From the IMG/VR virus record IMGVR_UViG_3300021960_000542, positions 1 to 23,055 of that record: DNA of 23,055 nt. The stretch is one strand, 5' to 3'. Of this stretch, positions 330 to 5,679 are shown piece after piece (position 1 is the stretch's first letter; each line of letters begins with the position of its first letter). The notes beneath the pieces are model-generated. The model was given only the letters and a program-made list of their open reading frames with translations. It made no database searches and was not told the origin of the DNA. This DNA is from a virus. The translations under genes were made by a program, and so were the position numbers.

Positions 330-499
330 CACCTATCGTATTTCATTCTGTACTGTGTGCTTGGGTTGTACCTCTCGTCCCCTGTCCTGGCATATATGCG
401 CAATGATACCCGCTCAATCTTTGCGCTCAATTGGCGCTGTAAATTCGATGCCTCTGGCGCATTCACTACATCACGCAACAGTTCACGACGCTGCCTCAT
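329..499 (-). CDS. Small basic protein of unknown function
   Basis: A 56-aa, arginine-rich, mostly helical protein starting MRQRRELLRD and ending RMKYDR. Its reading frame stays open far upstream as a shadow of the NinG-like gene. The ATG at 499 is chosen because it leaves only a 17-nt overlap with that gene, and its own stop forms TGATG with the HNH start. No family was recognised. Its place between two nucleases suggests a role in recombination or packaging, but nothing in the sequence proves this. That it is a gene rests on the tight overlaps and sensible composition. Confidence 0.6.
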   Translation of the reverse strand: MRQRRELLRDVVNAPEASNLQRQLSAKIERVSLRIYARTGDERYNPSTQYRMKYDR

Positions 500-1013
500 C
501 AACTCCCTCGTTCCCTGGTCCCTCCTCGGCTGTTCTTCTATCTCGTCTGGCCCTGGGTGACCTGGCCCAACTGAACCCTTTGAGTTGTTGCAGGCGCACT
601 GCCTCCCCTTTGTAGTGGTCCCACATCCTTTGCAATTCCTCCCGCCTCCACTTCCTGCCTCGTTTGCTTTGTTGGTAGATGCGTTCCGCAGTTCCTGGAC
701 CCTCCTGATCCAATCGTCTGCCGAACTCCCATTGCCTGCCTTGGTCGTAGATGTTGCAGGCGACGCATTGGGGGCGGACATTGTCCATTTCATACCTGGT
801 GGAATAGTGCCGCCTGCTGATAAAATGTCCCACATGAGCATCCCCGACCATATGCCGTTTGCCGCAGGTGTAACATTCCACGGTCCCCTGGTTGTCTGCA
901 TACAATGCCCGAATGTATTTCGATTGCCACTCATCGACTTTCTTTTTGAGTTGTGGTATTGTCAGTGCCTTTGGTTTGGCTGCCTTTTGCGTGGGTGCTT
1001 TGCGTCTTGTCAT
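483..1013 (-). CDS. ninG: NinG-like recombination nuclease
   Basis: A 176-aa protein resembling lambda NinG (Rap), a structure-specific endonuclease acting on recombination intermediates. A basic N-terminus (residues 1-16) is followed by a helical segment around residues 20-40, then a zinc-knuckle/HNH-like core: CxxC at 47-50, GDAHVGHFISR at 57-67, YEMDNVRPQC at 74-83 and the second CxxC at 83-86. The C-terminal third is charged and helical. The start at 1013 overlaps the preceding gene by 83 nt, which is long for this genome. No later Met lies before the conserved core, so the overlap seems real. It is followed by a small basic protein and the HNH nuclease. Confidence 0.85.
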   Translation of the reverse strand: MTRRKAPTQKAAKPKALTIPQLKKKVDEWQSKYIRALYADNQGTVECYTCGKRHMVGDAHVGHFISRRHYSTRYEMDNVRPQCVACNIYDQGRQWEFGRRLDQEGPGTAERIYQQSKRGRKWRREELQRMWDHYKGEAVRLQQLKGFSWARSPRARRDRRTAEEGPGNEGVDEAAS

Positions 1014-1473
1014 CGGTAGGCAATTTGCGAACCTTTGCCAACATGGCGTCGTTGAGTTCGTCCAATTGCTCCCGTTGCTTTGCTGCCGCTTTGTACGCTG
1101 GCGATGCCTGCACCTCCTTTGCCTGTCGTTGTAGACGCATCAAATAGGCCTTCATCTGCCCTTTGTACATGCGTTCCATGTCCTCGAAATATCGCAGGTG
1201 GTGGGCGTCCTTTATTTCGCAAATCTGTTGCGCCTCCATCACTGGGACTTCCGTGTCCTCTGTTGTGACGTGATCGGGCAATTTGCCCCAGGTCTTGAAA
1301 TACTCGCCCTCTGCCTTCAGTGGTTTGTACCGCTCTGCCGCTTCAGGTCCGTATATCTGGCGAATTGCAAACTTGCGTGAATCCAATATTTCATACCACA
1401 TGCGCCGCCAGTCGTCCGCGTGTTTGATGGGGTCTGGTTTCCACCTCTTATTCGCCGCTTCCTGCTCCGCCAT
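931..1473 (-). CDS. Hypothetical charged helical protein of the replication operon
   Basis: A 180-aa protein of unknown function. It is rich in Lys, Glu, Gln and Arg and looks mostly helical, with a likely coiled-coil tract (ERMYKGQMKAYLMRLQRQAK and onward) and a low-complexity Thr/Lys/Gln tail. The chosen ATG at 1473 overlaps the end of the preceding gene by 26 nt; an in-frame start at 1530 would overlap it by 83 nt. The last 83 nt also encode the start of the NinG-like gene in another frame, which may explain the unstructured tail. Its place just after the initiator pair would suit a replication accessory role such as a helicase loader, but no motif for that was seen. Confidence 0.7.
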   Translation of the reverse strand: MAEQEAANKRWKPDPIKHADDWRRMWYEILDSRKFAIRQIYGPEAAERYKPLKAEGEYFKTWGKLPDHVTTEDTEVPVMEAQQICEIKDAHHLRYFEDMERMYKGQMKAYLMRLQRQAKEVQASPAYKAAAKQREQLDELNDAMLAKVRKLPTDDKTQSTHAKGSQTKGTDNTTTQKESR

Positions 1474-2059
1474 CGTCTGTTGTTTTGGGCCTGTTTTTGT
1501 CGCGCTGTGCCATCTCCTCCCGCTCTGCAAACGTCAGTTTGTTTTTGCCGGCCAAAAATTCGGCCATTGTACGGCCTTTCTCCTGCCGTTCCATACCATC
1601 ACCCCACCCAAGGTGTTTGGATGCATTGTAGGCCCTCTCAGCGGCATCAGCGGCCGCCCTGCTCTTCGCCCGCTGGGCTATTTCTTCTCTGGCTTCGAAT
1701 TTCCGTTCGTTGTATGCCTGTTGACATTCGCGAATCCACCCAGTGGATGGCCTGTTGTAGTGTGGCTTCAGTTGGTTTTTGGCCATCATGTCCATGCACA
1801 ACGCCAAATCCTCGATGGTCCATGTGAAATCAAAGGTCATCATTTCATCCACTTCATCCCTTGCGTCCTGCTCCATCGTCCATGGGTGGTCGACATTCAT
1901 TCGGCGCAACATCCGTGCAAATAGCAACTGCACGACCATCACTGTGGTTTCCTCGTCTTGCATGACTGCCGATCGGACGTTGCAACCAAACCACGCCTGG
2001 TGGATGGTCAATGTCCGTTCATTGATTGCTGTGGCGTTCTTGCAGGCGCTGTGCAACAT
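1448..2059 (-). CDS. Phage replication-associated protein, unnamed family
   Basis: A 203-aa protein directly after the initiator gene. The central part (TIEDLALCMDMMAKNQLKPH, then W-I-R-E-C-Q-Q-A-Y-N-E-R) recalls a family of Bacteroidota mobile-element proteins that follow replication initiators, with a body of helices and a lysine/alanine-rich coiled C-terminus. This likeness is from memory and weak. The frame is open up to an ATG at 2176, which would overlap the initiator by 158 nt. The ATG at 2059 limits the overlap to 41 nt and is preferred. The C-terminus ends in a Gly/Ser/Asp-rich tail. Function cannot be assigned from the sequence. Confidence 0.65.
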   Translation of the reverse strand: MLHSACKNATAINERTLTIHQAWFGCNVRSAVMQDEETTVMVVQLLFARMLRRMNVDHPWTMEQDARDEVDEMMTFDFTWTIEDLALCMDMMAKNQLKPHYNRPSTGWIRECQQAYNERKFEAREEIAQRAKSRAAADAAERAYNASKHLGWGDGMERQEKGRTMAEFLAGKNKLTFAEREEMAQRDKNRPKTTDDGGAGSGE

Positions 2060-2747
2060 CCCGCGCCCAATCCGTGGTTCGTCCAATGTTTTCTCCGCTC
2101 TTTGGAGTCCTTGGAAATATGCCGCGCCATCCTCGTGTGATGGCTGTGGCGATTGCTTCAATGGCTGTTCGTTCATCTCCGTTTGTGTTTTGGTGTAATT
2201 GGTGCAACTCCAGTTCCTCGTATTTGGCTGCTCGGTGTTCGAACTGGTGTTGGGTTAGTCGGTATTCCTTCCATTCATCCCAGGCCATCTCAAATTCGTC
2301 CGAATCCCAGAATTTTCTCGAAAATGCCTTTTCTCTACTTACTGATTTATTTACTTCTTTACTTCTTTCTCTACTTGGGGGACCGATTGGTCCTCCCTTG
2401 CGGACCGATTGGTCCTCCCCTGCGGACCGATTGGTCCTCCCTTCCGGACCGGTTGGTCCCCCGGACCGATTGGTCCTCCCTTGGGCCGTTTGGTCCTCTT
2501 TCGTCCTGATCATCCTGGCCACGCCTTTGGTGGTTGTCTCCACCATGCCCATTTGTTCCAACTTTGACACCGCGCGTCGGACTGAACGGCAGTTGACCCC
2601 AAACATTTCGGCCAACTGCTCGTTCGTCCTGTATGCGTCCATGCCCTGTTGTTGCCATGTCCAGGCATCGCACCAAATGGCCATTTGTAAGCCACTCAAT
2701 GCCCCGGCATGCCGTTGGATGAACTCTGGCATTTGCAGATATTTCAC
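2019..2747 (-). CDS. Replication initiator-like protein with winged helix and embedded iterons
   Basis: A 242-aa protein. Residues about 15-75 form a winged helix-turn-helix (NEQLAEMFGVNCRSVRRAVSKLEQMGMV), as in phage O/DnaD-type replication proteins. Residues 83-125 are low-complexity, encoded by tandem DNA repeats. Residues 126-145 are Ser/Lys/Glu-rich, encoded by an AT-rich tract. The C-terminal part (146-242) includes W-D-E-W and an IATAITRGWRGIF segment like that near the end of DnaD-domain proteins, which bind the host replisome. The start is GTG at 2747, with a GTGA overlap on the previous gene. The layout (DNA-binding head, origin repeats in the middle of the gene, partner-binding tail) matches lambda O. 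The initiator role is inferred from domain type and context. Confidence 0.8.
   Translation of the reverse strand: MKYLQMPEFIQRHAGALSGLQMAIWCDAWTWQQQGMDAYRTNEQLAEMFGVNCRSVRRAVSKLEQMGMVETTTKGVARMIRTKEDQTAQGRTNRSGGPTGPEGRTNRSAGEDQSVRKGGPIGPPSRERSKEVNKSVSREKAFSRKFWDSDEFEMAWDEWKEYRLTQHQFEHRAAKYEELELHQLHQNTNGDERTAIEAIATAITRGWRGIFPRTPKSGENIGRTTDWARDVAQRLQERHSNQ
2326..2376. repeat. AT-rich, pyrimidine-skewed tract with an 11-bp direct repeat beside the iterons
   Basis: On the plus strand this tract is almost only T, C and A. It contains TTTCTCTACTT twice (2330-2340 and 2366-2376, 36 bp apart) with TTACTT/TACTTCTT repeats between. It directly borders the iteron array. In lambda-type origins an AT-rich segment beside the iterons is where the duplex first melts; that role here is inferred from position and composition. 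Confidence 0.55.
2380..2496. repeat. Iteron-like array: six near-palindromic 14-mers, candidate replication origin
   Basis: Copies of GGACCGATTGGTCC start at 2380, 2402, 2424, 2446 (GGACCGGTTGGTCC), 2463 and 2483 (GGGCCGTTTGGTCC, most diverged). The first three steps are exactly 22 bp, then 17 and 20 bp. Each unit is an interrupted palindrome with GGACC/GGTCC arms. The 22-bp step is not a multiple of three, so successive units are translated in different frames (GPIGP, DQSV, TNRS). This implies that the DNA, not the peptide, is conserved. The array lies inside the initiator-like gene and next to an AT-rich tract, as in lambda ori. Confidence 0.8.
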
Positions 2748-2962
2748 GCCTGCTCATCCAGTTCCATTGCGTCAATCTCCGCCATCACCACATCCACCAC
2801 CTCATCGGCAATGACGTCATGATGTTTGACCATGTGGGGCAGGTATCGCAGGATGCCCGCCGGGTTCCCGTTCGTCCAGTACAAAACGGTTCTGTAGTTG
2901 ACGTTTAGCGCCTCCGACGCATTGACCAGGGATCCAAACTGTCTGGTTAAAAACGCCTTCAT
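2744..2962 (-). CDS. Small helix-turn-helix DNA-binding protein
   Basis: A 72-aa protein. Residues about 9-30 (SLVNASEALNVNYRTVLYW) look like a Cro/repressor-type helix-turn-helix: the chain is skipped over a short helix, a turn, then a recognition helix with N-Y-R-T. The rest is a helical, acidic tail (VIADEVVDVVMAEIDAMELD) suited to dimer contact. ATG at 2962 overlaps the SSB-like stop as TGATG; an in-frame ATG at 2971 would add three residues. Its gene lies just before the initiator, so it may regulate the replication genes or act at the origin. This is inference. It is the only small HTH protein seen in the window. Confidence 0.65.
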   Translation of the reverse strand: MKAFLTRQFGSLVNASEALNVNYRTVLYWTNGNPAGILRYLPHMVKHHDVIADEVVDVVMAEIDAMELDEQA

Positions 2963-3360
2963 CAATCCCATGGCAAATCGTTGGTTTGAACGTTGTTTTT
3001 GGCTGCCTTTGCCATCACCTGTTGTTTGATGGACTGTTGCGCCTGGGGTGCTGGTTGCGCTGGTGGTTGTGCCGCCGCCAACGTTCGCATTTTGTATGCC
3101 TTCAACGACAAAAACGCCATGACTGGCCTGCCGTCCTGTGGGTCCCATTCACGCCCGCCCATGAACGCCAACACCTGGATGGTGTCGCCCTGGTTCAGTG
3201 CCTGCGCCTCCACCACCTTGTCGCCCCAGAACTGCACCGGTATCACTTGTTCATATTCGCCGTCCATGTAGGACAAATGCACCTCCACCAACTCGTTGCC
3301 GTTGTTGAGTGTCTTGGTGGGGCATACCCGCACCACATCGCCTGTGAAATCAATTTTCAT
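2962..3360 (-). CDS. SSB-like OB-fold protein
   Basis: A 132-aa protein. Residues 1-95 have the strand pattern of a small OB fold (MKIDFTGDVVRV, ELVEVHLSYMDGEYEQVIPVQFWGDKVVEA, DTIQVLAFMGG). They resemble the DUF3127-type single-stranded-DNA-binding proteins of Bacteroidota. A Pro/Ala/Gln-rich linker (96-115) leads to an acidic, aromatic tip, NDLPWD, similar in kind to the C-terminal peptide by which bacterial SSB recruits partners. It likely coats ssDNA during replication or recombination. It starts 9 nt after the previous stop and has an A-rich leader without Shine-Dalgarno. Confidence 0.75.
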   Translation of the reverse strand: MKIDFTGDVVRVCPTKTLNNGNELVEVHLSYMDGEYEQVIPVQFWGDKVVEAQALNQGDTIQVLAFMGGREWDPQDGRPVMAFLSLKAYKMRTLAAAQPPAQPAPQAQQSIKQQVMAKAAKNNVQTNDLPWD

Positions 3361-3654: not shown

Positions 3655-3746
3655 CAGTCCCGTTCTATGTCAATCAAATCATCATCAGGACTCAGGGCCA
3701 TGGCAACAATTGCCATTACCACCACAATTGCCATGGCTTCAATCAT
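3654..3746 (-). CDS. 30-aa putative single-span membrane micro-protein
   Basis: This frame encodes MIEAMAIVVVMAIVAMALSP followed by an acidic tail DDDLIDIERD. Residues 3-18 are continuously hydrophobic and long enough for one membrane helix; the tail should stay in the cytoplasm or periplasm. The ATG at 3746 overlaps the end of the upstream gene by 8 nt, and its TGA forms TGATG with the next gene. It thus fills the only gap in the overlap chain here. It is too short for standard gene calling. It is known only from its frame, composition and junctions. Confidence 0.5.
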   Translation of the reverse strand: MIEAMAIVVVMAIVAMALSPDDDLIDIERD

Positions 3747-4131
3747 CGTTGTCCTCCATTTCGTCCGCTGCGTAAATGCCTTCTCCGTACATCCCAGCCA
3801 ACTTCAACACCGCCCTGGACAACGCGCGTTTTTCGCTCATTGCGATGGGATAGGCGTTCTTGTTGTTGCCTGGTGTCACCTCACCAAAGGTTGTGACCTT
3901 CCTTATGCCGTGGGCGGTCATCATTGACGCATCGCAGCGCATGACGAAACGCCCCTTGTCGGGATCGGACCACGGCAAAAATGGTTCGTAGTCCGCCTGG
4001 ATATTCAACACCGCCTGGACTGTCTCAACGCCCTGCCGGTTGATAATGATAAACCCACGTTTGTCAACGTGAAAATGTTCTTTTTTCAGCCCATATTTTT
4101 GGGAGAATTGCTTGAGTGTTTCCGGGTTCAT
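3739..4131 (-). CDS. Conserved phage protein, possibly linked to ssDNA recombination
   Basis: A 130-aa protein with an alpha/beta N-terminal part (FHVDKRGFIIINRQGVETVQ) and a C-terminal signature TFGEVTPGNN followed by YPIAMSEKRALSRAVLKLAG and an acidic end. The AMSEKRALSRAVLKLAG stretch resembles segments of phage proteins encoded near ssDNA-annealing proteins and SSBs; this is recall without a search. The SSB-like gene lies three genes downstream. It starts by an ATGA overlap. A role in recombination or replication is plausible, but a biochemical activity cannot be read from the sequence. Confidence 0.6.
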   Translation of the reverse strand: MNPETLKQFSQKYGLKKEHFHVDKRGFIIINRQGVETVQAVLNIQADYEPFLPWSDPDKGRFVMRCDASMMTAHGIRKVTTFGEVTPGNNKNAYPIAMSEKRALSRAVLKLAGMYGEGIYAADEMEDNDD

Positions 4132-4468: not shown

Positions 4469-4710
4469 CGGTGGTGGTTTTCTGCAATTTCCTGTTCCAA
4501 CTTGTGCATCGGCAAAAGGTCATCGGCACATTCGGTGATGTCCAACGCTTCATGGGTGTTGGTGTTGATTAGGTACACTTCCAACACCTCAAATTCTTCT
4601 GGCGTTCCTGGTTCGTGCCGTGTTTCCGGCTCCGCTGGCCAATGACGGTACACCAATTTTGCGATGTAGCCAGACCCAATGCCGTGTTCGTATGTGTGCA
4701 ATTGTCTCAT
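4465..4710 (-). CDS. Hypothetical small phage protein
   Basis: An 81-aa protein starting MRQLHTYEHGIGSGYIAKLV. The pattern (I-A-K-L-V-Y-R-H-W-P-A-E-P-E-T, then P-G-T-P-E-E-F-E-V-L-E-V-Y-L) recalls small beta-rich phage proteins with a loop of Pro, Gly and Glu and a final acidic helix. No function is known to me. The ATG at 4710 is chosen because it forms ATGA with the prim-pol-like stop; the frame is open further up to 4842 but only as a shadow of that gene. It ends in another ATGA junction. Confidence 0.65.
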   Translation of the reverse strand: MRQLHTYEHGIGSGYIAKLVYRHWPAEPETRHEPGTPEEFEVLEVYLINTNTHEALDITECADDLLPMHKLEQEIAENHHR

Positions 4711-5231
4711 GCCTTCAAATCTAATGGGGTGACGTCCAAGTTGATGTATGGAACCCATGGCGACGCAAAGCGAATGGACGCCAGGTTGACCGACACTGGA
4801 CGATCGGTCAAAACGTCCAAATTCGCCTCCACCCAATCGCACACATCATGCGCCATGGCTGCGTGGTTTTCGGCGTTGATGTCCTCCACCGCAATCAGGA
4901 TGTAGACACCATTTCCCCCGCAGCTAATGCCACCAGCCACCACATGCGGGAACGCGTCCAGGGAACGAACCAAACTTTCCCAGGACTTTGGTTCCGCCTG
5001 GTGTTTGCCGTCTATGTCCACTTGCACCAACCCGCTGTGACGCGCCAAACTATCCTTTTTCCGCGACATGAACAGCCCATGGGGCATGATGGCCGGCAAT
5101 GCCTTTTTGTTGCGTTGGACGTCTGCATGTGTTGGGCGGACGTTTTCGAGCCAATCAATCAATGATTGTTCGTTGGTGTTGCGATCGAATGCGCCTCGGC
5201 ATGCGCTCACTGCGTTGAATGAAAAATACAT
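4707..5231 (-). CDS. BT4734/VirE-N-like primase-family domain protein
   Basis: A 174-aa protein consisting of little more than the N-terminal domain of the BT4734/VirE-N family, found mainly in Bacteroidota and related to archaeo-eukaryotic primase folds. Visible signatures: SGLVQVDIDGK (D72 and D74, likely metal ligands), HVVAGGISCGGNGVYILIAV (residues 96-115) and the closing IRFASPWVPYINLD. Full-length relatives carry a helicase or other C-terminal domain, absent here. It opens the leftward replication operon, 40 nt after a strong terminator, behind a leader rich in A and C without Shine-Dalgarno. It may prime or help start replication; catalytic competence is not established. Confidence 0.75.
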   Translation of the reverse strand: MYFSFNAVSACRGAFDRNTNEQSLIDWLENVRPTHADVQRNKKALPAIMPHGLFMSRKKDSLARHSGLVQVDIDGKHQAEPKSWESLVRSLDAFPHVVAGGISCGGNGVYILIAVEDINAENHAAMAHDVCDWVEANLDVLTDRPVSVNLASIRFASPWVPYINLDVTPLDLKA

Positions 5232-5264
5232 GGTTGTATGTTTTGGTTGTGATTTCAGAAAAGG

Positions 5265-5291
5265 AAAAAATGCCCCGACCGAAGCCGGGGC
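5265..5291 (-). terminator. Rho-independent terminator with UUCG tetraloop
   Basis: On the minus strand GCCCCGGCTTCGGTCGGGGC forms an 8-bp stem (one G-U pair) capped by C(UUCG)G, an exceptionally stable tetraloop. It is followed by A and six Ts. It begins 9 nt after the stop of the 86-aa gene and lies 34 nt before the start of the prim-pol-like gene. Confidence 0.9.
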
Positions 5292-5624: not shown

Positions 5625-5654
5625 CAAAGATATGCAACTTTTTTCACTATGCAA
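5625..5654 (-). promoter_or_regulatory. Bacteroidota-type promoter (TTG-N19-TATCTTTG)
   Basis: On the minus strand TTG (5654-5652) is followed by 19 nt and TATCTTTG (5632-5625). This matches the primary sigma factor consensus of Bacteroidota (-33 TTG, -7 TAnnTTTG) in both sequence and spacing. It points to the 86-aa gene, with a leader of roughly 55-60 nt. Confidence 0.8.
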
Positions 5655-5664
5655 GTTTTTTCAT
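5631..5664. repeat. Two tandem 17-bp repeats over the promoter
   Basis: TATGCAACTTTTTTCAC (5631-5647) is followed without gap by TATGCAAGTTTTTTCAT (5648-5664), 15 of 17 bases identical. The pair covers the -33 element, the whole spacer and the first bases of the -7 element. This is the position expected for a repressor or activator site. Confidence 0.8.
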
Positions 5665-5679
5665 GAAATATTTTTCATG
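5662..5679. promoter_or_regulatory. Palindrome upstream of the promoter, possible operator
   Basis: CATGAAA-TATT-TTTCATG is a perfect 7-bp inverted repeat with a 4-nt centre. It ends 8 bp upstream of the -33 element. Placement and symmetry suit a dimeric regulator; it could also be a weak hairpin in the lysis transcript beyond its terminator. Confidence 0.45.

Follow-up and report, generated by a model that had tools for sequence, protein, structure and literature searches.

The repeat array embedded in the replication initiator gene of this virus is predicted to be the initiator-binding half of the phage replication origin, a reading to which a probability of about 0.87 was assigned from sequence comparison. 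The window analysed here is the whole 23,055-nucleotide stretch of IMG/VR record IMGVR_UViG_3300021960_000542 (positions 1 to 23,055). The array occupies positions 2380-2496 on the minus strand, corresponding to codons 84-123 of a 242-codon minus-strand gene that runs from 2747 to 2019. Its six 14-bp units (+ strand coordinates 2380-2393, 2402-2415, 2424-2437, 2446-2459, 2463-2476 and 2483-2496) read as GGACCAATCGGTCC on the minus strand, where they follow one another in the order 2483, 2463, 2446, 2424, 2402 and 2380. In + strand order, units 1, 2, 3 and 5 are exact copies of GGACCGATTGGTCC, unit 4 differs from it by one change and unit 6, GGGCCGTTTGGTCC, by two. The first-pass annotation had described six units at steps of 22, 22, 22, 17 and 20 bp inside the initiator gene; these coordinates were recovered, with four of the units identical. 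The sequence GGACCRATYGGTCC has four matches in the 23,055-base record, every one inside the array, and the reversed control has none.

The same DNA is read in three frames, as had been proposed earlier. In gene direction the six units fall in frames 2, 1, 0, 1, 2 and 0 and encode EDQTAQ, RTNRSG, GPTGPE, RTNRSA, EDQSVR and GPIGPP, the peptide differing with the phase. The self-match of the gene at 22 bp is 41/44. Recoded genes were used as the null, in which the protein was kept, synonymous codons were redrawn from the gene's own usage and shifts of 12 to 40 were scored; the maximum reached in 200 such recodings was 32/44. Control ORFs from 17 records exceeded their own null (40 recodings each) in 9 of 182 cases, compared with 13 of 13 initiators. 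The two strongest control ORFs share the 22-bp period, and the one from the window is the plus-strand ORF that overlies the array itself.

No relatives were found in viral contigs, phage records or plasmid records with the initiator as sole query, and none were obtained with the SSB-like neighbour as query or in a search of genome contigs. The NinG-like gene of the window identified 39 loci in uncultured-phage records, 36 of them with an orthologous initiator, and an alignment of these relatives as query identified 80 loci on contigs partly shared with the first set. The sample comprised 73 distinct initiator sequences, each 500 nt or longer, a few truncated copies included. The strongest repeat period was 22 bp in 67 of these, 18 bp in five (the L062 group) and 12 bp in L125, and in the 67 the array sits at the same position in the gene. 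For 66 of the 67, none of 200 synonymous recodings reached the observed value (for L097, 3 of 200 did), a count that represents fewer independent cases because many of the 73 sequences are close kin. In L049, the nearest relative, the array is weak (33/44, against a null maximum of 32). When DNA and protein were compared, relatives lacked the peptide repeat and had the frame-shifting 22-bp array in place, in agreement with the earlier claim that the DNA is kept and the peptide is not. A search of the open-licence literature found no description of arrays of this kind in marine or Flavobacterium phages.

Other repeat arrangements were observed among the more divergent sequences. Five initiators (L062-L065 and L067) have a different N-terminal domain and units around GTAGCGTRGACGC at steps of mostly 18 bp, in frame; their C-terminal domain is up to 97% identical to that of the 22-bp types. 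L125 and the gene at 7835-8473 of L147 (gp045 of Flavobacterium phage sniff9-1) are initiator-like; their N-terminal domain is a different one and they lack a 22-bp array. Both have AT-rich coding repeats of 6-12 bp (GATAAT, GTAAGT) at the linker, which could represent an embedded opening element of a simpler kind.

At least seven unit types were distinguished (window, L049, type A, type B, L051, L066/L068 and L075/L087/L097). The unit sequence varies by lineage, so the conserved features are the position of the array, the 22-bp spacing and the AT-rich tract behind it. The 14-bp unit of the window is near-palindromic (12/14, p 0.03-0.06 against shuffles); the near-palindromic character claimed for the units thus stands for the window and fails as a general property of the relatives: only certain types (window, L051, L097) show it clearly, and type B lacks it. 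The units could instead act as mRNA hairpins in regulation, termination or processing, given that GGACC-AAUC-GGUCC can fold and that RNA z values of -2.7 (window) and -8.4 (L051) were obtained. However, type B arrays with the same period are no more structured than expected (z +1.1 to +1.4, mononucleotide shuffles), L049 reaches only -0.6, and hairpins need neither a fixed 22-bp step nor an AT-rich tract; a hairpin function is considered highly improbable.

A pattern scan of virus stretches for a spaced pair of the exact unit found no array of this kind elsewhere. Spaced pairs of the exact unit did occur at 17 other virus loci; those inspected were mostly runs with steps in multiples of 9 bp and were judged a confounder. 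Long GGNCC...GGNCC runs with 9-bp steps were seen in L005, L007, L010, L011, L012 and L013, as expected of collagen-like Gly-Pro-X coding, and such runs in virus contigs confound palindrome scans made with the window unit.

Synonymous variation was compared in three type-A subgroups and type B, using sequence pairs that share the amino acid and scoring the codon difference. The synonymous difference was 0.025-0.060 in the array against 0.22-0.30 upstream of it, a 3.6- to 9-fold depression, with many other windows equally low in subgroup A1. Over the AT-rich tract, in the 20 codons after the array, it was 0.010-0.053, and amino-acid identity there dropped to 0.65 in type B and 0.72 in A2. The C-terminal part gave intermediate values (8.5-22%) and is not a clean control, as it overlaps the next gene. 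Selection is acting on the DNA of the repeats rather than on their peptide. A low-complexity linker maintained at the protein level, or a minisatellite expanded by slippage, in either case without DNA function, would fit the predicted disorder of the encoded segment, and linkers tolerate repeats. This explanation is nevertheless very unlikely: the phase of the unit changes the peptide, synonymous recodings fail to reproduce the array, the 22-bp step is kept in lineages with unrelated unit sequences, and synonymous variation is reduced to the extent given above.

A candidate duplex-unwinding element, the AT-rich tract AGTAGAGAAAGAAGTAAAGAAGTAAATAAATCAGTAAGTAGAG, lies at 2321-2379 on the minus strand (GC 0.26-0.30). 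Positions 2321-2370, directly behind the array in reading direction, have a GC of 0.26 compared with 0.54 for the window and are among the two lowest separate GC minima of the 23 kb, 5626-5675 being lower (0.22) and 5222-5271 equal (0.26). The AT-rich tract had been said to adjoin the array, and the same arrangement was seen in each of the 65 genes in which a 22-bp array could be placed: G+C content was lower over the 50 bp that follow the array than over the 50 bp that precede it, with means of 0.29 after and 0.52 before (gene mean 0.48). The best self-match of the tract falls at 12 bp in the window and in 57 of the 65 arrays examined; this repeat is in frame and was therefore not counted as independent evidence. 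Direct repeats of 12 bp that carry ACTAA or AGTAA motifs occur in the tracts of the window (2321-2379) and its relatives. Across the window the GC skew falls steadily and marks no origin. The lowest G+C 50-mer of the record, 5626-5675, lies in the space between leftward genes, on the upstream side of the replication module, and may be a promoter region.

The gene that carries the array (2019-2747, minus strand) has a GTG start, backed by the aligned MKYLQ start of L049, and encodes a protein of 242 residues. Its residues 35-233 are covered by the profile of PHROG 678 (replication initiation O-like) at 1.1e-12, a family matched by 12 of 12 aligned members, and further profile matches were to initiators and DnaD-like loaders. 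The match to Pfam PF04492 (Phage_rep_O) was at E 0.068 and 14.1 bits, below the 28.7 cut-off, and the 12 aligned members gave no match to this family at 0.01. The winged helix attributed to the gene by the first-pass annotation is upheld by the predicted structure of the N-terminal DNA-binding domain (residues 1-82, positions 2502-2747, minus strand), which has a winged-helix pattern with pLDDT of about 80-93 across most of residues 11-80. Pfam HTH_36 is matched by all 12 aligned members. Residues 86-144, encoded by the array region, are predicted to be disordered (pLDDT below 50). The C-terminal helical domain (residues 150-210, positions 2118-2300, minus strand), delimited from the predicted structure and the alignment, is kept across all iteron types, with a conserved F..AW..W..Y motif, and would be a helicase-loading or protein-contact domain.

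The best structural neighbours of the N-terminal domain are winged-helix regulators (MarR, ArsR), with DnaD-N included, at weak E-values. The array could be an operator through which the initiator or another regulator controls transcription of the replication operon, with the origin located elsewhere; repeated near-palindromes and a winged helix also fit a repressor, the nearest folds are MarR- and ArsR-type regulators, and dual roles are common among initiators. An operator is nonetheless unlikely, although the least so of the alternatives considered. The array lies mid-gene rather than at a promoter in every relative, an AT-rich tract with frozen synonymous sites stands behind it, and the PHROG matches are to replication initiators. 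These observations favour an origin, the iterons of which the winged helix (residues 1-82) is predicted from the structure model to read.

Iteron type and winged helix vary together. Over 2,080 pairs, unit similarity correlated at 0.88 with the N-terminal domain and at 0.47 with the C-terminal domain; the partial Mantel r of units with the N-terminal domain given the C-terminal domain was 0.86 (0/999 permutations), and the partial correlation with the C-terminal domain given the N-terminal domain was -0.38. L051 and L042 have C-terminal domains that are 100% identical, helix-turn-helix regions 54% identical and an iteron identity of 0.59 (shuffled mean 0.47, 95th percentile 0.55). L133 combines type-A iterons (1.00 to L043) with an N-terminal domain at 73-75% and a C-terminal domain at 57%. 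Since the iterons and the winged-helix region are adjacent in the gene, recombination transferring both could explain part of the co-variation without function, and recognition is supported rather than proved.

A broader interpretation is offered tentatively, as possible but on balance doubtful. The window may belong to a large undescribed group of small aquatic phages with modular embedded origins, in which a 22-bp ruler is fixed and the winged-helix recognition part and the iterons are swapped as one cassette. The C-terminal domain and the in-frame 12-bp repeats of the AT-rich tract would stay constant, the repeats forming a second code and both serving strand opening. If so, these phages would hold natural sets of orthogonal initiator/origin pairs. 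The lineages offer a natural experiment on joint specificity change of a winged-helix initiator and its sites.

The initiator had been assigned to a replication operon, and its neighbours agree. Upstream on the minus strand are an SSB-like protein (DUF3127; 2962-3360, Pfam 7.8e-9, PHROG 4932 at 1e-10), a weakly matched RecT-like protein (3739-4131, Pfam E 0.02, conserved synteny) and a BT4734-like N-terminal domain, primase-like in phages (4707-5231, Pfam 1.9e-10, PHROG 18375 primase/helicase at 7e-9). A NinG/Rap-like endonuclease (483-1013, minus strand, PHROG 5034 at 1.4e-22) served as a synteny anchor, and the order SSB-like, RecT-like, primase-like, NinG-like recurs in the loci of relatives. 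A conserved gene downstream of the initiator (1448-2176, minus strand; syntenic, about 22-29% identity) shares up to 158 bp with the 3' end of the initiator and occupies the place of lambda P. It has no Pfam match, and its weak structure model has no PDB match; a helicase loader was sought by fold and profile, with no recognisable homologue found, and its relatives match PHROG 35728, a family without assigned function. Homologues of the RecT-like gene occur in Flavobacterium and Tenacibaculum phages, mostly the former, which suggests Bacteroidota hosts. In plasmids, iteron arrays have roles in partition and copy control as well, and the array of the window might by analogy be an incompatibility, partition or packaging site instead of a replication origin; this is a slight possibility, as the array lies within the initiator gene, is linked to its DNA-binding domain and has a candidate unwinding element alongside.

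For the origin, the following sequence of events is proposed. The N-terminal winged helix of the initiator would bind the iterons, with dimers probably occupying the near-palindromic 14-bp units, which are spaced by about two turns of the DNA helix. The bound initiators would assemble into a compact nucleoprotein complex, and the strain it places on the neighbouring AT-rich tract would open that tract, after which the C-terminal domain would recruit helicase-loading functions. The peptide encoded by the array would serve just as a flexible linker, which allows the DNA sequence to be preserved at the expense of the peptide. On this proposal the origin position is predicted with a precision of about 180 bp across a family of uncultured phages. 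A general route to finding such origins follows, in which initiator genes are screened for a frame-shifting repeat period and this period is tested against synonymous recoding.

In lambda, O dimers bind iterons and a 40-bp AT-rich region opens, and the O protein binds DNA through its N-terminal domain and P through its C-terminal domain, with a flexible linker between the two (PMC5043065, PMC6022878, PMC7466680). As a control, the iterons of the lambda O gene were found to be spaced by 20, 24 and 23 bp and to be read in frames 0, 2, 2 and 1, with an AT-rich stretch behind. The earlier description of the window as a lambda O/ori layout with an unrelated repeat holds: the order and polarity of DNA-binding domain, iterons, AT-rich tract and C-terminal domain agree and the linker is flexible, while the lambda iteron ATCCCTCAAAACGAGGGA is unrelated to the window unit. 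Unlike in lambda, the step is fixed at 22 bp in most relatives, the initiator falls below the Phage_rep_O cut-off and the next gene is not recognisable as P. As the cut-off is missed and the downstream gene has no recognisable homologue, the window gene is O-like and not a strict member of the O family; as such, it is predicted by analogy to work like lambda O/ori.

Other known systems share parts of this arrangement. Plasmid iterons usually lie outside the rep gene. In iteron plasmids the initiator sites are phased and adjoin an AT-rich region, and most of them are direct repeats to which monomers bind (PMC5043065); the phased sites next to an AT-rich region are common to the window, in which the array is inside the gene and for which the plasmid collection gave no match, in contrast to an iteron plasmid replicon. 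The lambdoid phages P27 and 933W have six iterons in O, as the window gene does, and extra iterons lengthen the protein (PMC7466680); their iterons are nearly those of lambda, whereas the window group changes the sequence type and keeps the spacing. The lytic origin of phage P1 is postulated to lie inside the initiator gene repL with an AT-rich region needed (PMC9948254), which resembles the arrangement proposed for the window in both respects and differs in the initiator. Also comparable are the cultured phages vB_OliS_GJ44, Skulduggery, HU1 and Cruim01, found through the N-terminal domain, with best in-gene periods of 23, 22, 22 and 23 bp, respectively. GJ44 (37/44), Skulduggery (31/44) and Cruim01 (29/44) beat all 200 recodings, and HU1 was weaker (4/200). 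In Skulduggery, a phage of P. fluorescens SBW25, an annotated DnaC-like loader is the next gene after the initiator. These phages have a related N-terminal domain but other hosts, C-terminal regions and unit sequences, and the similar arrays of GJ44 and Skulduggery make the embedded-origin reading testable in culture.
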